In this document: positions 7,212-14,555 of the stretch, piece by piece | Numbering within the stretch: position 1 is the first letter of the stretch | How the letters are laid out: each line of letters opens with the position of its first letter | From: an uncultured Ignavibacteria bacterium | GTDB lineage: Bacteria; Bacteroidota; Ignavibacteria; SZUA-365 | DNA length: 64,000 nucleotides | Assembly (NCBI GenBank): GCA_913061095.1 | Contig: CAJXVM010000005.1 | Location: forward strand, 62,001-126,000 | Direction of reading: 5' to 3' | Notes under the pieces: generated by a model | The model's database searches: none | Told to the model about the DNA's origin: nothing | Seen by the model: only the letters and a program-made list of their open reading frames with translations | Program-made: the position numbers and the translations under genes

Positions 7212-7754
7212 TTATTGACAGCTTCCGGATGAGGAAGACATTTTCTTGGACTTCGATTTCGTCGGGATGAGCACCTCGTCGATGACGTGAATCACGCCGT
7301 TCGATGCGGCGACATCCGCGGTGGTGACCTTCGCGGAGTTGATCATCACGCGTCCGTCATTGATGCTGATGCGGAGATCCTTGCCGGCAAGTGTCGTCGC
7401 CTTGTCAAGGTTCACGACCTGTTTGGAACCGACTTCACCATTCACGACGTGATAGAGGAGAATCTCTTTCAGGGCGTCCTTGTCCTTGAGCAGGCTCTCC
7501 AGCGTACCCTCGGGCAGCTGCTCGAATGCCTTGTCCGTGGGGGCGAAGACAGTGAACGGCCCGTCACCCTGCAGGGCACCGACGAGTCCGGCCTCGGTCA
7601 GCGCCTTGGCAAGAATGGTGAACGATCCGGCCTCGACTGCCACGGCTACAATATCCTTGTCAGCGCCGGGCTTGGAATTTCCGTTGGCCTGCAGCTGTGG
7701 CTGCGCGGCGAAAGCGAGAAGGAAAAGCGGGAGAATATATGCGAGCTTCTTCAT
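7212..7754 (-). CDS. Secreted fasciclin (FAS1) domain protein
   Basis: A 180-aa protein with a signal peptide (KKLAYILPLFLLAFAAQPQ) and one FAS1 domain. The H1 motif is DGPFTVFAPTDKAFEQLP, followed by LYHVVNGEV and, at the C-terminus, NGVIHVIDEVLIP, all standard for beta-Ig-H3/fasciclin adhesins. The tail is basic then Ser-rich and ends in a Cys. FAS1 proteins are extracytoplasmic adhesion or matrix proteins. It lies downstream of a DUF4397 lipoprotein gene on the same strand (84 bp gap), so the two cell-envelope proteins may be co-transcribed from the 8.6 kb promoter region. Confidence 0.92.
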   Translation of the reverse strand: MKKLAYILPLFLLAFAAQPQLQANGNSKPGADKDIVAVAVEAGSFTILAKALTEAGLVGALQGDGPFTVFAPTDKAFEQLPEGTLESLLKDKDALKEILLYHVVNGEVGSKQVVNLDKATTLAGKDLRISINDGRVMINSAKVTTADVAASNGVIHVIDEVLIPTKSKSKKMSSSSGSCQ

Positions 7755-7838: not shown

Positions 7839-8588
7839 TCATTCCGTGGGGGTCAGGTCGACAAAGGACTTTCCGTTGCTGTCGTCGATGAAGGTGCGCA
7901 CACCGAAGGAGAACTCATCCATGGGATCGAGCGTGCCCCGCGCAATAACGGTATAGACCTTGCCGTTTTCCAGCGTCACAGCATCAAAAGTGACGAGCTC
8001 GTTCGTTGATCCGTGTGCCGTGACGGCGAGTGTATAGGTTCCGCCGTCAACCTCGATATAGTCCGCAGCAGTGGAGAAATCAACCGCGGTAAAAAGACTG
8101 GCGCCGTCACCGCTGTTCACCTTGATATCAACAGCCGGCGCATCGGAGACCGTGTGAATGAAACGAACTTTCGCCCTGTCGGAAGGCTCTTCGTCCGTGG
8201 CGACGACTGCGCTGATCGATGCGAGTGCGTCCACTGCCAGCACGGAGAGCATCTGATCGGCTGCAATCGGAAGATCTGCTTCGATTACGGCAGGCTCCGT
8301 CTGTCCGGCAGGTACCACAGTGACGCTGCGCGTGCCGGCGGAAACCGGGGCGTAACCGGAACTCTCTCCGTAGGCCAGATTGGAAACAACCTTGCTTCCG
8401 TCGACCCATATGTCGACCGCAGGAGCGTCATAACTCATGTGCAGAACACGGATCATACTATTCTGCTGCGGTTCCGGGGAAACGACATCATCGTCATCGT
8501 CGCTGCAGGCGGCGAGGGTGACCGAGACAGCGAGCATGATGGCAGCGAGCTTCAGGCTGCGTCGGGATACGAAATTCGTGATATTCAT
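7839..8588 (-). CDS. DUF4397 domain lipoprotein
   Basis: A 249-aa protein with a lipoprotein signal (LAVSVTLAACSDDDDD; lipobox Cys at about residue 28). Two related DUF4397-type beta-sandwich halves follow: MIRVLHMSYDAPAVDIWVDG and, later, VRFIHTVSDAPAVDIKVNSG. The Asp run after the Cys may favour surface or outer-membrane retention. The function of DUF4397 is unknown; the proteins are extracytoplasmic. Its start faces that of the CarH-like regulator across 162 bp, so control by that regulator is possible. Confidence 0.88.
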   Translation of the reverse strand: MNITNFVSRRSLKLAAIMLAVSVTLAACSDDDDDVVSPEPQQNSMIRVLHMSYDAPAVDIWVDGSKVVSNLAYGESSGYAPVSAGTRSVTVVPAGQTEPAVIEADLPIAADQMLSVLAVDALASISAVVATDEEPSDRAKVRFIHTVSDAPAVDIKVNSGDGASLFTAVDFSTAADYIEVDGGTYTLAVTAHGSTNELVTFDAVTLENGKVYTVIARGTLDPMDEFSFGVRTFIDDSNGKSFVDLTPTE

Positions 8589-8750
8589 AACGGCTCCTTG
8601 AAAACATTTTCAATTTTTGTTACAAGATGTGCAACGAATGTCTAGAATATTTGGTTCCTTATATGAACATTATTTGAAATTATTTTTTGTGCAGTCAGGT
8701 TTTTTGAAGCATTTTTTGGAAGTTCCTTATACAAAAAGTAAGTTAGTGCC
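8589..8750. promoter_or_regulatory. AT-rich divergent promoter region with repeated GTTCCTTATA element
   Basis: This 162-bp region separates the divergently transcribed DUF4397 and CarH-like genes and is strikingly AT-rich compared with its surroundings. GTTCCTTATA occurs at 8654-8663 and again at 8722-8731. A close form, GTTCCTTTAT, recurs at 9835-9844 before the downstream operon. An imperfect inverted repeat (TTGTTAC...GCAACGAA) spans 8617-8638. These are candidate operators or promoter elements of the regulator; no binding data are implied. Confidence 0.5.
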
Positions 8751-9704
8751 ATGCAGCAGCCAAGATATGTCATGAAAGTCGCGGCCCGTCTTTCGGGTCT
8801 TTCCCCGTACGTGATCCGCTCATGGGAAAAGCGTTACGGTGTCGTGGATCCCGAGAGAACAGACACGAACCGACGCCTCTATTCTGAAGAGGATGTCGAG
8901 CATCTGCGTCTGCTGCGCAGGCTCACGGAGCGGGGACACGCCATCGGCAGTATCGCGGATCTGCCGATCGATGAGCTGCGCAGGATGGTTGAGGAAGAGG
9001 ATCGGCTGCGCAGGCAGCAGGGAACGAACACGAAGCAGGGAGATGCCGCCATCAGTCTTCGGGAAACGCTGCTCGACCATGCGCGCGCCCTTGATCCGCG
9101 TGCGATGGAAGCGGCGCTCCTGCGCGCATCTTCGGACTTTTCCCGGCGTGAATTTCTCGAGCAGGTACTTGTTCCGTTTATCGAGGAAGTCGGTCGGGGA
9201 TGGATGGAGGGACGTCTGCGTATTGCGCATGAACATGTGGCGACGTCCGTTGTGCGGAATTATCTCCTGAATGCGCTCACCACGTCGCAGGCTGCTCACA
9301 CCGCACCCACGGCGATTGTGGCCACGCCGCAGGGACAGGTGCACGAACTCGGTGCACTGATGATCGCAAATGTCGCCGCCATGAGCGGGTGGGATATCAT
9401 CTTCCTCGGGTCTGATCTCCCGGCGGAGGAAATCGCATCTGCAGCACGCGAGCTCGGCGCTTCGATGGTACTGCTCAGCATTGTTTTCCCCCCGAACGAT
9501 CCCCGCATTCAATCCGAGCTGAATTCCCTCGGGCGGCTGCTTCCCGATGCGATTCCTCTCATCGTCGGCGGAAGGGCCGCGGCCGGCTATCTGGATACGC
9601 TGCAGCGCATCGGCGCGGAGTATCTCGAGGATCTCGACACACTGTGGACCATGCTGTCGAAGTCACAATTTCGCAGTCCAGTCAATCCCCAGGGCACCGA
9701 CTGA
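8751..9704 (+). CDS. MerR-family regulator with B12-binding photoreceptor domain (CarH/LitR type)
   Basis: The 317-aa protein has an N-terminal MerR helix-turn-helix (residues 6-75; VAARLSGLSPYVIRSWEKRY) and a cobalamin-binding half (about 100-300). The helical-bundle motif W-x9-EH, characteristic of adenosylcobalamin photoreceptors, is present as Trp151, Glu161 and His162. The lower axial His is His198 in QVHELG, where the usual first acidic residue is Gln. Trp151 is followed by Met; Thermus CarH has a His there that forms the light-state cobalt adduct. Known relatives repress DNA in the dark and release it on light-driven loss of adenosyl. The likely targets are its own promoter and the operon downstream. 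Confidence 0.88.
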   Translation: MQQPRYVMKVAARLSGLSPYVIRSWEKRYGVVDPERTDTNRRLYSEEDVEHLRLLRRLTERGHAIGSIADLPIDELRRMVEEEDRLRRQQGTNTKQGDAAISLRETLLDHARALDPRAMEAALLRASSDFSRREFLEQVLVPFIEEVGRGWMEGRLRIAHEHVATSVVRNYLLNALTTSQAAHTAPTAIVATPQGQVHELGALMIANVAAMSGWDIIFLGSDLPAEEIASAARELGASMVLLSIVFPPNDPRIQSELNSLGRLLPDAIPLIVGGRAAAGYLDTLQRIGAEYLEDLDTLWTMLSKSQFRSPVNPQGTD

Positions 9705-9888
9705 GCCTCCTGACGCGCTGATGGGCCGCTCCCATCTCCTCATTCTACCCGTATCCGCGGTGGAGTCCTCCACGGCGGAGAACCCGAACACCTTTGACGC
9801 AATCATGACAATCCGATGACATTCAGGATGCGCGGTTCCTTTATCCTGCTCTCAGCAACCGAACCATCATTACAACCCGGAGAGCATC
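9705..9888 (+). promoter_or_regulatory. Leader region before the 9.9-14.6 kb operon
   Basis: There is no gene in this 184-bp gap after the CarH-like regulator. GTTCCTTTAT at 9835-9844 nearly matches the two GTTCCTTATA elements upstream of the regulator and lies 45 bp before the first small start codon. This makes a shared operator or promoter element plausible. Confidence 0.35.
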
Positions 9889-10020
9889 ATGGAAACCGCA
9901 AGCATTCTGCAGATCGCCGCCGTGGCCGCCGCTGTCGCCACGCTGGCCGTGTCCGCCGGACTTCTGCTCTGCCGCCTGATCCGTCAGTCCGGTCCCGGGT
10001 CATTCATGTGGCACGACTGA
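9889..10020 (+). CDS. 43-aa single-pass membrane peptide
   Basis: A short frame from ATG 9889 to TGA 10020 preceded by CCGGAGAG, a usable ribosome site. It encodes a 43-residue peptide with one hydrophobic segment (about residues 6-27, ILQIAAVAAAVATLAVSAG) followed by a basic Arg-containing turn and a short polar tail ending in WHD. The orientation suggests a membrane anchor with a cytoplasmic tail. Its stop lies 18 bp before the DUF3108 start, with that gene's AAGGAGG between, so it would be the first gene of the operon. Reality is supported by context and composition only. Confidence 0.5.
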   Translation: METASILQIAAVAAAVATLAVSAGLLLCRLIRQSGPGSFMWHD

Positions 10021-10038
10021 CGAAGCAAGGAGGACATC

Positions 10039-10908
10039 ATGAAACACACACGCACAGTCAACAGCGTATTGCGAAGCATGGGGATCACCGCCGTCATGCT
10101 GGGTATTGTCATCGCGACCGCCGCGGGACAGTCGCAGAACCTTAGCGCGCGCTACAGTTCGGCTCCGTTCACGGAGCGGGAGGTGCTGCGCTACTCGGTC
10201 AGCTGGAGCTTTTTTCATCTCGGAAGTATCGAAGTGCGGCAGTCGCGCATGGAAGGAGACACGCGCAGTCGCGTGCAGCTCCGCGTACGTACGGCTTCAG
10301 GCATTCCGTTCATCGACGTCGACATGCGGGATATTTCCCTGCTGTCGCCCGATGACCCGAGAAGCACTGATTTCATCGTACGGATCGATCATGATCCAAA
10401 AGAATACCGGCATTACACGCACGATCCCGTATCGGGAACCTTTACCATGCTGCTCAAGGAAGGTGAGGGAAATCCCGTTCGAAAGAAGCGAACGGAGCCG
10501 CGGCGATGTTTCGATGCGCTCGGCGTGCTCATGTACATGCGCGGACTCGCCGGCAGCGGTGAGAATCTCGTGATCCCCGTGCTGATGGATTACGAACTTG
10601 CCGATACCCGCATCATCGCGCATCGCGAGCGCGAGGAGGTGGATGTCGATGCGTTCGACGACGAGGTGCCTGCATACCGAATCTCCGTGCGCGCCGGATG
10701 GAAAGAGGAATGCGTCGGTGGAATGGACGGAGATTACGAGCTCTGGTGCCTTGCCGACGGATCGGCGATTCCGCTTCGCGCAAAAATCGATCTTGCCCTC
10801 GGCTCCATATCCATCGAACTCAAGTCATTCAGGCGCAGCGGCTGGAAGCCGGGCGCAAGCACCGCCAGCCTCGAGCGCGGATCCGGAGGGAAAGGAGGTG
10901 TGCGATGA
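10039..10908 (+). CDS. DUF3108 domain exported protein
   Basis: A 289-aa protein with an N-terminal hydrophobic segment ending AAGQSQN, probably a cleaved signal. The DUF3108 pattern follows: FTEREVLRYSVSWSFFHLGSIEV at the start, FDALGVLMYMRGL in the middle and a C-terminal strand region (LADGSAIPLRAKIDLALGSISIELK). DUF3108 proteins are periplasmic or envelope proteins of unknown biochemical role. A strong AAGGAGG precedes the ATG. It overlaps the following SDR gene by ATGA. Confidence 0.88.
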   Translation: MKHTRTVNSVLRSMGITAVMLGIVIATAAGQSQNLSARYSSAPFTEREVLRYSVSWSFFHLGSIEVRQSRMEGDTRSRVQLRVRTASGIPFIDVDMRDISLLSPDDPRSTDFIVRIDHDPKEYRHYTHDPVSGTFTMLLKEGEGNPVRKKRTEPRRCFDALGVLMYMRGLAGSGENLVIPVLMDYELADTRIIAHREREEVDVDAFDDEVPAYRISVRAGWKEECVGGMDGDYELWCLADGSAIPLRAKIDLALGSISIELKSFRRSGWKPGASTASLERGSGGKGGVR

Positions 10909-11906
10909 CAACGCTCGTGACCGGCGCCACAGGATTCATCGGTGCGCGTCTCGTGGAAGAACTGCTTCGGCGCGGTGAGCGCATTCAAGTGCTCTGTCGT
11001 CCGAGCTCCGATACGTCGAACCTGACAGATCCACGCATACGGATATTTCGCGGCGATCTGGCGTCGGCAGAAGATGTGCGTGAGGCCATGCACGGATCTG
11101 ACCGCGTGTATCATCTCGCGGCATTGGCGAAGAACTGGGCGAGAGATGAAGCAGATGTGCGCCGCATCAACATCGAAGCACTGCGCACGGTCCTGGACAT
11201 CGCGCACGAATGCGGAGTGAACCGCGTGGTGTATACCTCCACCATCATGACCTACGGTCCGTCGAATGGTGCCGCCGTTACAGAAGACACGGTGCGCGAA
11301 GTGCCGGCAGAAACCCTGTATGAGCAGTCGAAGCGTGATGGCGAAGAAGTCGTCGAGGACGCGTTGCGTCGCGGACTCGATGTCGTCGTTGTGCATCCGA
11401 CGCGAGTCTTCGGTCCGGGAAAGCTGACAGAGGCGAACTCAACGACGATTCTCATCAGGCAGTATCTGAATGGCACCTGGCGTACCGTTCCCGGCGCCGG
11501 CGACGCTGTGGGGAACTACGTGTACGTGCGAGACGTCGTGCGGGGCTGCATTGCAGCCATGGAGCGTGCCGAACGCGGACGTCATTTCATCCTCGGCGGA
11601 GCGAATCTCACGTATGCTGAGCTGTTCGAGCTGCTCGCGGAAGCTGGCGGAAAGCGGCGCGTGCTTCTGGCGGTACCGCGTACGCTCGCGAAGCTGTTCG
11701 CGCAGCTCGAACTGGCTGTCGGCAAACTCGGGCTGCGCGAACCGGCGATTACTCCCGCCTGGGTGGATGTTTTCTACAGCGACTGGATCTGCAGCCACAC
11801 ACGTGCGTCCAGGGAAATCGGGTATGAACCGATGCCGGTCGAGGATGCCCTCGCGGAAACCGTCGCCTGGATTCGCGGTGTGCGCGCAGGGGAGGCGCTG
11901 TCATGA
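10905..11906 (+). CDS. Extended SDR-family NAD-dependent epimerase/dehydratase
   Basis: A 333-aa Rossmann enzyme. The nucleotide-binding loop is GATGFIG at residues 7-13, acidic and basic residues follow in the second strand, and the catalytic Tyr-x3-Lys is in LYEQSKRDGE, with VYTSTIMTYG providing the Ser/Thr. NAD(P) is the expected cofactor. The substrate is unknown; this branch includes dihydroflavonol-4-reductase-like and HpnA-like enzymes acting on isoprenoid, steroid or sugar substrates. The start (ATG 10905) follows AAAGGAGGTG and overlaps the DUF3108 stop. It also overlaps the CPBP gene by ATGA. A second SDR closes the same operon. Confidence 0.9.
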   Translation: MTTLVTGATGFIGARLVEELLRRGERIQVLCRPSSDTSNLTDPRIRIFRGDLASAEDVREAMHGSDRVYHLAALAKNWARDEADVRRINIEALRTVLDIAHECGVNRVVYTSTIMTYGPSNGAAVTEDTVREVPAETLYEQSKRDGEEVVEDALRRGLDVVVVHPTRVFGPGKLTEANSTTILIRQYLNGTWRTVPGAGDAVGNYVYVRDVVRGCIAAMERAERGRHFILGGANLTYAELFELLAEAGGKRRVLLAVPRTLAKLFAQLELAVGKLGLREPAITPAWVDVFYSDWICSHTRASREIGYEPMPVEDALAETVAWIRGVRAGEALS

Positions 11907-12628
11907 AACCGCTCTCGCTCACACCGCTTCTCGGCCTTCACATGCGTGCCGAAGAACGCCGCGCCGCTGTCGTACTGCTGGTCGGAGTCGTGATCACGAC
12001 CATCCATCGCCAGGCCTGTGGCGTGGACACACTCCCGGCTGTCGGCGTGTTGGTCTCCGAGAGCGCACGCGTCTGGCTGTACTCCGCATGCACGCTGCTG
12101 CTGTTCGCCGCCATTCCTCTGCTGCTCATTCGAGGATCATTCCGCCAGCCGCTCGCGGATTACGGCGTGCGGCTCGGCGACTGGAAGTTCGGTCTTACGG
12201 CCGTCGGAATACTGCTTCCCGTCATTGCAGTCGCAATGCTGCTGCCCGCCGCCGGCATGGATGACATGCGGGCATTTTATCCCGTCGATAAAAGTGCCAT
12301 GGAATCGACCGCGCGTTTCGTGCAGTACGCGGTTGGAAGAGTGTTCCTTTTCTATGTCGGCTGGGAATTTTTCTTCCGGGGATTCATGCTCTTCGGTATC
12401 CGTGACTCCGTCGGGGATGCGGTCGCGATCGCCATCACGACACTCCCCTCGGCACTGTGGCATATCGGGTATCCCACGGGGGAACTCTATGCATCGATCG
12501 GCGCCGGACTGCTGTTCGGCTGGCTTGCCGTCCGCACGCGTTCCATTCTCTGGCCGCTGCTGCTGCATGCCGCCATCGGTCTCATTACGGATCTGTGTAT
12601 CACACTCTCATCCGGAGGTGCATCATGA
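11903..12628 (+). CDS. CPBP-family integral membrane protein (CAAX protease-like)
   Basis: A 241-aa polytopic membrane protein of the CPBP/Rce1-like family (PF02517 type). The family motifs are recognisable: EFFFRG at residues 155-160, the helix with LPSALWHIGYP (His187) and a C-terminal LLLHAAIG. The first motif is normally EExxxR; here its first Glu, catalytic in Rce1-type proteases, is Trp154. Proteolytic activity is therefore doubtful. It overlaps both neighbouring genes by four bases. Other members act in protein maturation, bacteriocin immunity or as pathway partners in membranes. Confidence 0.85.
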   Translation: MKPLSLTPLLGLHMRAEERRAAVVLLVGVVITTIHRQACGVDTLPAVGVLVSESARVWLYSACTLLLFAAIPLLLIRGSFRQPLADYGVRLGDWKFGLTAVGILLPVIAVAMLLPAAGMDDMRAFYPVDKSAMESTARFVQYAVGRVFLFYVGWEFFFRGFMLFGIRDSVGDAVAIAITTLPSALWHIGYPTGELYASIGAGLLFGWLAVRTRSILWPLLLHAAIGLITDLCITLSSGGAS

Positions 12629-13587
12629 ATCTCCGAACGATGAATCGATTCTGGTATGACGTGCTTGCGTCCACGGCGGTAGGAGCACTCCTGACGATCC
12701 TGCTGCTCACTCTCCTGTTTCCCGATCACATCGACGATGCGGTGCAGCTCCGTGTCCGTGTTCTCGGTGCCCTCGGGGTGACGATCGCCGTCATCGTCTT
12801 CTCTCCGCGCATGAAGCGCCCGCTGCGCGCCGCCGTGCGTGCCGCGGGGACGATTGCACTGGCCAGCTTCCTGTTCAGTGCCGTCGCCGGATTGCAGCAC
12901 ATGCTGACAGACGGCTGGAACGACGCCGCGCTGATTGCCTTCGAAACACAGTTCACGGGAATCGAACTCTCACATATGCTTGAACGCATCACCACGCCGG
13001 CACTGACCGAATGGCTGATGGCGTCTTACGTCCTGTATGTGCCGCTCATGCCCTTCACCGCCTGGGTTGTCTACCGCGTGGCAGGTGAGCGCGAAATGTA
13101 CGCCTATCTATTCAGTCTGCTGGCGGTAAACCTGCTCTGTGATCTGGGATTTGTGCTCTATCCTGTCGCGAGCCAGCTGTTCTTCGATCCCGATCAGTAC
13201 ACCGTTCCGCTGACTGGCGGTCTGTTCACCGATGCCGCGAATTGGATTCGCGCGAACGAGCATTATCCGGGAGGCAGCTTTCCCAGTCCGCATAACGCTG
13301 CAGGCACGGTCATGTTCCTGTTTCTCTGGCGAACGCATCGCCGGTGGGCTGCCATCATGACGCCCCTGCTATTGAGCATTCCGCTCGCCACGGTGTACGG
13401 GCGCTTTCATTACCTGTCCGACGCGGTGGTCGGCGTCACCATGGCAGGAATCCTGGTTTATCTGGTACTCCGCGCCGGCGTGCCGCGGCCACAGACGCGC
13501 AGCGCCGTCTCGCCGGCCCAGCCCGCATTCCTGAATCCATTCCCAAGACTTCAATCGGAACAATCATCATCGAGAGGTTCGTCATGA
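12625..13587 (+). CDS. PAP2-superfamily membrane phosphatase/phosphotransferase
   Basis: A 320-aa protein with at least six predicted membrane helices and the PAP2 active-site pattern: FPSPHNAAGTV (second motif) and YGRFHYLSDAVVG (third motif; His nucleophile and Asp). It resembles the inositolphosphotransferase/AUR1-like branch more than short PgpB enzymes, given its long N-terminal helical region. Expected substrates are lipid phosphates or polyprenyl diphosphates. The start (ATG 12625 after GGAGGTG) overlaps the CPBP stop, and the end overlaps the last SDR gene. The C-terminal 45 residues are polar, Pro/Ser-rich and probably disordered. Confidence 0.87.
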   Translation: MNLRTMNRFWYDVLASTAVGALLTILLLTLLFPDHIDDAVQLRVRVLGALGVTIAVIVFSPRMKRPLRAAVRAAGTIALASFLFSAVAGLQHMLTDGWNDAALIAFETQFTGIELSHMLERITTPALTEWLMASYVLYVPLMPFTAWVVYRVAGEREMYAYLFSLLAVNLLCDLGFVLYPVASQLFFDPDQYTVPLTGGLFTDAANWIRANEHYPGGSFPSPHNAAGTVMFLFLWRTHRRWAAIMTPLLLSIPLATVYGRFHYLSDAVVGVTMAGILVYLVLRAGVPRPQTRSAVSPAQPAFLNPFPRLQSEQSSSRGSS

Positions 13588-14555
13588 AAGCCCTGGTCAC
13601 CGGAGGAAGCGGCTTCATCGGAAGCCACCTCGTCGAAACCCTGCTGGCGCGCGGATGGGATGTCTGCGTCGTCGCGAAAGATCACATGTACTGTTCCGAC
13701 CTCCCTGTGCCCGTCACCATCGCTGACCTCCGAGACGAGGAGGCGCTCGCTCCGTTGCTGAGGGATGTGGACATTGTCTATCACCTTGCCGGACTCACGC
13801 GTGCGCGGCGATCCGTTGATTACTACACGGTGAATCACCTCGGAACGCGCAGACTGCTGGGTATCTGCGAGCGTCACTGCACGAAGCTTCAGCGCTTTGT
13901 CTACGTAAGCAGTCTCACGGCTGTGGGACCCCGTCTCGGGGTCGACGAGGTCACGGAAACCACGCACTATCATCCGGTATCTCACTACGGGCGCAGTAAA
14001 ATGCTTGCGGAAATTGAGGTGCTGGATGCTGCTGACCGTGTCCCGGTGACCATTGTGCGTCCCAGCGCTGTGTATGGTCCGCGCGACCGTGATTTCTTCC
14101 GATACTTCAAGATGATTCGCACCGGCATCGAGCCATTGCTCGGATCCGGCCGTCATCAGCTCAACCTCGTTTACGTGGAAGATCTGGTTCGGGGTATTAT
14201 CCAGGCGGGTGAACATCCGTCGGGTGCAGGAGAAGTCTTTTTCATCGGCGGGGAGAATATCAGCACCGAGATGATCTGCCGGATGATCGCGCAGGCGATG
14301 AAGAAGAATCCGCTGGTCTTCCATCTGCCGGAAGGGATCATCTATATCGTCGGAGCCGCCGGGGAAGCCGTGGGACGTCTGCTCCGCAGACAGGTGTTCT
14401 TCAATGTGCAGAAAGTACGCGAGGCCGTGCAGGAAGCATGGACCTGTTCAATCGACAAGGCGCGCAGCCGCATCGGCTTCGAACCGCGCCATTCCATCTC
14501 CGACGGAATGGCGGTGACCTACGATTGGTATCGGTCAGAGGGCTGGCTGGGATAG
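13584..14555 (+). CDS. Extended SDR-family NAD-dependent epimerase/dehydratase (second copy)
   Basis: A 323-aa protein related to the SDR three genes upstream. It has the loop GGSGFIG near the N-terminus, VYVSSLTAVGP, the catalytic pair in HYGRSKMLAE and VRPSAVYGPRDRDF after it. It is most like UDP-sugar or sterol-type epimerase/dehydrogenases; the substrate is unknown. Translational coupling to the PAP2 gene is likely (ATGA overlap, GAGAGG before the ATG). It is the last gene of the operon. No strong terminator follows. Confidence 0.88.
   Translation: MKALVTGGSGFIGSHLVETLLARGWDVCVVAKDHMYCSDLPVPVTIADLRDEEALAPLLRDVDIVYHLAGLTRARRSVDYYTVNHLGTRRLLGICERHCTKLQRFVYVSSLTAVGPRLGVDEVTETTHYHPVSHYGRSKMLAEIEVLDAADRVPVTIVRPSAVYGPRDRDFFRYFKMIRTGIEPLLGSGRHQLNLVYVEDLVRGIIQAGEHPSGAGEVFFIGGENISTEMICRMIAQAMKKNPLVFHLPEGIIYIVGAAGEAVGRLLRRQVFFNVQKVREAVQEAWTCSIDKARSRIGFEPRHSISDGMAVTYDWYRSEGWLG

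Follow-up and report, generated by a model that had tools for sequence, protein, structure and literature searches.

The window, by which we mean the whole stretch of DNA analysed (64,000 nucleotides), carries the gene of a MerR-B12 regulator followed by an operon, and this arrangement raises the question of whether the regulator controls the operon, as the first-pass annotation had proposed, or whether the two belong to different units. A second question is what the operon makes. All regulatory statements made below rest on sequence.

Gene layout of the locus

The genes of the locus are the following, in window coordinates:

7212..7754, minus strand: fasciclin-domain secreted protein (Pfam PF02469, E 1.3e-42)
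7839..8588, minus strand: DUF4397 lipoprotein-like gene, the first divergent from carH (Pfam PF14344, E 1.6e-44)
8751-9704, plus strand: MerR-B12 regulator gene carH (Pfam MerR_1, B12-binding, B12-binding_2)
9889-10020, plus strand: 43-aa small membrane protein, conserved tail SGPGS(F/L)MWH(D/E)
10039-10908, plus strand: DUF3108 exported protein, predicted DUF1849/LolA-like fold (Pfam PF11306; AF2 model)
10905-11906, plus strand: SDR1, an extended SDR resembling HpnA but scoring under its cut-off (NCBIfam)
11903-12628, plus strand: CPBP/Rce1-like membrane protein (invariant E155, H187, H222)
12625-13587, plus strand: PAP2_3 protein, predicted AUR1-like fold (PSxH and RxHY...D motif residues invariant)
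13584-14555, plus strand: SDR2, in a clade of SDRs encoded beside serine palmitoyltransferase (tree)

The regulator and operon genes were found where the first-pass annotation had placed them, and the operon is coupled as described there, with 4-nt overlaps at the DUF3108/SDR1, SDR1/CPBP, CPBP/PAP2 and PAP2/SDR2 junctions. Across the sequences analysed, several picks of the ORF caller turned out to be shadow ORFs, and frames with BLAST or HMM matches were used in their place. The conserved genes neighbouring the operon (peptidases, amidohydrolase, argininosuccinate-lyase-type and Yip1 genes) were considered as a clue to its function and set aside, as they showed no consistent link.

Operon proteins and their probable chemistry

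Orthologues of the 43-aa peptide precede DUF3108 in G296, G298 and G300, a more diverged one does so in G303, and a tblastn match was obtained in G301; the tail, common to four genomes, indicates that the peptide is a real, conserved small membrane protein. The AF2 model of the DUF3108 protein (pLDDT 82) matches DUF1849 with Z 16.3 and LolA/RseB with Z 8-10 (LolA up to 9.6). The predicted half-barrel resembles the DUF1849 and LolA-RseB-LprG fold, although DUF3108 is a separate Pfam family and the LolA match is middling.

Concerning the PAP2 protein, its model fits the AUR1 inositol-phosphorylceramide synthase over the full length (Z 18.9 and 18.6, with 261-267 residues aligned), whereas PAP2 phosphatases are matched with Z of at most 15.8 over about 165 residues, that is, about half of it. 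The predicted whole-chain fold and the PAP2 catalytic motifs are shared with AUR1 and with bacterial inositol-phosphorylceramide synthases (BT_1522), but by sequence the match to AUR1 is weak (E 0.38) and the NCBIfam model PhinosDhcerSyn gives 15.6 bits against a cut-off of 480, so that the relation is proposed only in the sense that the protein may work like AUR1.

The best NCBIfam match of both SDRs is HpnA, at 228 bits for SDR1 and 152 for SDR2 against a cut-off of 367.65, and neither NCBIfam nor phmmer identified their substrates. In the tree, SDR2 clusters with SDRs encoded beside serine palmitoyltransferase (SPT) in other bacteria (support 97/95). It is through these SDRs that we liken it to CerR; it differs from the CerR type in being a paralogue (37% identity) of the SPT-near SDR of its own genome.

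Elsewhere in the same genome an SPT-like gene is followed by a GNAT acyltransferase-like gene. According to published work, bacterial ceramide is made with the participation of SPT, a bacterial ceramide synthase and CerR, and we infer that this GNAT is the ceramide synthase in question. Since a ceramide-synthase-like GNAT is present in 60 of 61 relatives, co-occurrence of the operon with sphingolipid genes is uninformative. As for a supply of inositol, inositol-phosphate synthase (MIPS) was found in 2 of the 10 operon-bearing relatives, which does not fit an operon dependent on it; within the family the presence of MIPS and that of the operon even tend to be mutually exclusive (Fisher p 0.045 among 12 related genomes, uncorrected for kinship). 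An inositol head group is thus disfavoured. A separate cluster elsewhere in the genome (G000; L220, 5063-8624) joins MIPS to a CDP-alcohol-transferase-like and a PAP2-like gene and is a candidate inositol-lipid cluster.

Taken in this way, the most likely role of the operon is to modify an envelope lipid of the ceramide type and to carry it; we would give an even chance of being right to the best reading of its chemistry, a ceramide-type lipid to which no head group is assigned. The envelope-lipid operon, unstudied, of the first-pass annotation is supported by these data, while the polyprenoid that it had also offered as product fits less well than a ceramide-type lipid. In a rival reading the operon would belong to hopanoid, sterol or other polyprenoid metabolism, with HpnA-like SDRs and a PAP2 protein acting as prenyl-phosphate phosphatase. 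HpnA is indeed the top match of both SDRs, and the genome possesses an adjacent SQS_PSY pair as well as a phytoene-synthase-like gene beside a phytoene-desaturase-like one. However, both SDRs stay well below the HpnA cut-off, the SQS_PSY genes are on other contigs, SDR2 groups with SDRs found beside SPT, and the PAP2 protein fits AUR1 along its whole length better than it fits PgpB-type phosphatases; we consider this alternative unlikely.

Two other arrangements were observed in more distant lineages. In Aminicenantes and some Acidobacteria (L094, L100, L104 and similar) the gene order is SDR2-PAP2-third SDR-CPBP-SDR1. In a Syntrophobacteraceae MAG (L128, 1000-12944) homologues of SDR2 and PAP2 lie beside a phospholipase-D-like gene, the GNAT and a 2323-aa PKS-like protein, possibly a polyketide-type sphingolipid cluster.

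The CarH-type regulator

The regulator matches Thermus CarH (5c8d) with a phmmer E of 2e-32 (about 116 bits), and its W-x9-EH stretch (GRGWMEGRLRIAHEH) and cobalamin histidine (GQVHELG) align with that protein. A MerR DNA-binding domain is followed by two B12-binding domains, with Pfam MerR_1, B12-binding_2 and B12-binding all above cut-off. Four elements, GxxW, EH, GxxH and GxxxP, have been tied to the light response (PMC11796333), and the window protein carries all four, as GRGW, EH, GQVH and GSDLP; so do the full-length carH orthologues, apart from the one in G303, where the GxxH pattern failed. The NCBIfam CarH equivalog NF052513, a narrow naming model, gives 140 bits against a curated cut-off of 400, and the regulator is therefore filed as CarH-type and not as that equivalog. 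By sequence, the product of 8751-9704 is a genuine CarH-type B12 photoreceptor, and on this point the earlier description, based on W-x9-EH and the cobalamin histidine, holds.

With the known CarH/LitR regulators (Thermus TtCarH, 5c8d) it has in common the MerR and B12-binding domains, the four elements and a TnnACA site core. Two differences should be noted: the putative operator is here a spaced palindrome, whereas theirs consists of tandem 11-bp repeats, and the partner gene encodes a fasciclin, whereas theirs are carotenoid genes.

A single conserved, putative operator upstream of carH

The sequence features upstream of carH are these:

8633..8658, minus strand: possible ECF-sigma promoter for DUF4397/fasciclin, GGAACC-N16-CGTT (aligned sequences)
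8638..8670, plus strand: degenerate copy of the conserved carH operator, ATGTCTAGAATATTTGGTTCCTTATATGAACAT, agreeing with the consensus at 17 of 21 positions (alignment and pattern search)
8722..8737, plus strand: second GTTCCTTATA copy, close to the start of carH; it overlaps TATACAA, a degenerate form of the TAGACAA half-site (alignment)

By aligning the carH upstream regions of eight family genomes, a palindromic site, TTGTCTAG-N7-GGTTCC-N5-TAGACAA, was found; it lies just upstream of carH in all nine family genomes that possess this gene. The match reached 17-21 of 21 positions in each of the eight genomes tested, and none of 1000 shuffles of each was as high. When 12 family genomes were searched with up to three mismatches, eight carH relatives gave one operator per genome, only just upstream of carH, and at this threshold the pattern was absent from G300, G302 and G306, in which no full-length carH orthologue was found either. 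No other copy in the family is as degenerate as that of the window, which has four mismatches in the 20-position pattern and for this reason was missed by that search; with a relaxed pattern, 8638-8670 is the sole exact match in its genome. The known CarH repeat, nAnnTnnACAn (PMC8156234), and the operator described here have TnnACA in common. CarH may also bind weaker sites that the patterns used would miss.

The first-pass annotation had drawn attention to a near-identical element occurring twice before the regulator and once before the operon. The copies are real, with GTTCCTTATA at 8654 and 8722 and GTTCCTTTAT at 9835, but they do not form one conserved element. Copy 1 (8654) is the centre of the conserved carH operator. 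Copy 2 overlaps the half-site listed above; in G298, G303 and G296 a TAGACAA stands in a comparable position. Copy 3 (9835-9844) falls in the spacer of the operon promoter and is not conserved in relatives. The pattern GTTCCTTWWW, picked after the fact, occurs four times in the window, where shuffles predict 0.27 occurrences; the fourth (19896) lies within a gene.

Fasciclin as partner gene of carH

A fasciclin gene is divergent from carH in eight of the nine family genomes (window, G297, G298, G299, G301, G303, G304 and G305), with DUF4397 between the two in the window and G303. The ninth, G296, has carH, operator and operon, and no fasciclin gene within the 20 kb read. On the minus strand of the operator region, GGAAC(C/T)-N16-(C/G)GTT is present in all eight aligned genomes, and the divergent genes may accordingly be served by an ECF-sigma promoter. 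In Rhodobacter, the fasciclin RSP_1409 is induced by singlet oxygen and lies within the RpoE regulon (PMC7074977). No paper linking CarH to fasciclin was found in the literature searched. Operator and partner gene together point to fasciclin and autoregulation as the role of CarH.

In a more distant relative (G333) the carH homologue and a phytoene-desaturase-like gene are divergently arranged, and TTGTCTA sites lie in the interval that separates them. A carotenoid or hopanoid target of CarH was also considered and rejected: the carotenoid-like and SQS_PSY genes of the window genome are on other contigs, and no TTGTCTA was present in the stretches read.

Does CarH control the operon?

The proposal to be weighed is that in the dark CarH keeps the operon repressed, acting through the GTTCC copy at 9835 or by way of read-through from the carH promoter, so that a light-protective lipid would be made in the light. 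The arrangement in the window lends itself to this: carH and the operon are on the same strand, 184 nt apart, and the search for an intrinsic terminator in the gap gave none (the hairpin after carH, with z -0.53 and no T-run, is not a clear one). Transcription from carH may read through into the operon in the window genome or its genus. Moreover, carH and operon are neighbours in all three operon-bearing members of the genus (window, G296 and G298), which makes some functional link within the genus possible; their closeness seems to be a genus-level trait, because in G298 too the SDR2 end is near carH, about 8 kb before it.

Beyond the genus the two were not found close together. We collected 47 distinct operon loci from several phyla, defined by the presence of SDR1, CPBP and PAP2, and carH was within the stretch read at two of them, the window and G296. 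It was absent from the other 45 and, among the 35 loci with at least 3 kb read upstream, from 33. The first-pass annotation itself had counted operons that mostly lack the regulator as evidence against its proposal, and the regulator's absence from 45 of 47 loci leaves CarH control of the operon unsupported; the operon is a separate, widespread, unstudied gene set. Within the family, G300 has the operon and no full-length carH orthologue (best match E 3.7e-14, against 1e-75 or better elsewhere), G297, G299 and G305 have carH with no operon detected, and about 606 kb separate the two in G303.

The operon appears to have a promoter of its own:

9806..9843, plus strand: putative operon promoter/control element TGACA-N6-TGACA-N20-TA, containing most of the third GTTCC copy (conserved spacing)

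This element precedes the operon with identical spacing in five genomes (window, G296, G298, G303 and G300), among them relatives without linked carH, and the third GTTCC was not found in the promoter spacer of G296, G298, G303 or G300. None of the five operon upstream regions scored gave a value like that of the CarH operator. With no operator at the operon, a conserved promoter in front of it, and the operator and partner of carH elsewhere, control of the operon by CarH, the central claim of the first-pass annotation, is in our judgement quite unlikely.

In the genome, TGACA-N6-TGACA-N20-TA has nine exact sites, where the base count predicts about 0.55; when one mismatch is tolerated the number rises to 22, and the reversed control gives 10. 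Most sites stand 70-150 nt ahead of genes whose products are exported or lipid-related, and the element resembles an 11-bp tandem repeat for a regulator of the OmpR/PhoB type. Genes downstream of the other eight exact sites (L189, L191-L197) include a UshA-like 5'-nucleotidase and an SDR, and one-mismatch sites precede a second gene for a GNAT and one encoding an Omp85 domain. Despite the UshA-like gene in this set, a Pho box was rejected, as the 3.8-kb PstS locus read contains no such repeats.

Proposed model

We hold it to be probable that carH and the operon are two neighbouring yet separate units, a CarH-fasciclin photoswitch and a ceramide-type lipid operon. In the dark, AdoCbl-dependent CarH would bind the one palindromic operator (8638-8670), repressing itself and the divergent DUF4397-fasciclin genes; in the light, AdoCbl would be photolysed and both carH and DUF4397-fasciclin released. 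The sensor residues, the conservation and position of the operator and the fasciclin partnership are observed, and from them we infer AdoCbl binding, the effect of light and repression by CarH.

The operon would be driven from its own TGACA promoter. SDR2, as a ceramide-reductase-like enzyme, and SDR1 may act on the lipid, the AUR1-like PAP2 protein would transfer or exchange a phospho-head group, DUF3108 with its LolA-like fold may carry or bind the product in the periplasm, and CPBP and the 43-aa peptide would be membrane accessories. Behind this substrate and these reactions, which are deduced, stand the conserved gene set, the predicted folds, the SDR2 phylogeny and the separate pair of SPT-like and ceramide-synthase-like genes, which are observed. 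That CPBP is instead a sorting or intramembrane protease, and that the operon processes envelope proteins and not lipids, is very unlikely, for although E155, H187 and H222 are invariant in eight orthologues and the best NCBIfam match is the archaeomyxosortase MrtA (72 bits, where the cut-off is 200), the frequent partners of CPBP are two SDRs and an AUR1-like PAP2 protein.

A bolder version of the ceramide-type reading, quite improbable in its full form, would be that of a widespread, unrecognised pathway for an envelope lipid that is based on ceramide and has a head group other than inositol, built by means of a transferase of the AUR1 kind, two SDRs of which one is CerR-like, CPBP and a LolA-like DUF3108 carrier. 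It would operate in Ignavibacteria and other Bacteroidota, Aminicenantes, Acidobacteria, Zixibacteria and a Myxococcales MAG, and in one genus, where it stands beside CarH, it would be partly light-controlled by read-through.

The analysis defines a conserved, uncharacterised operon and puts DUF3108 into a likely sphingolipid context. In this family CarH appears to have a single-site regulon, which is amenable to test, and the fasciclin gene would be its likely light-induced target.
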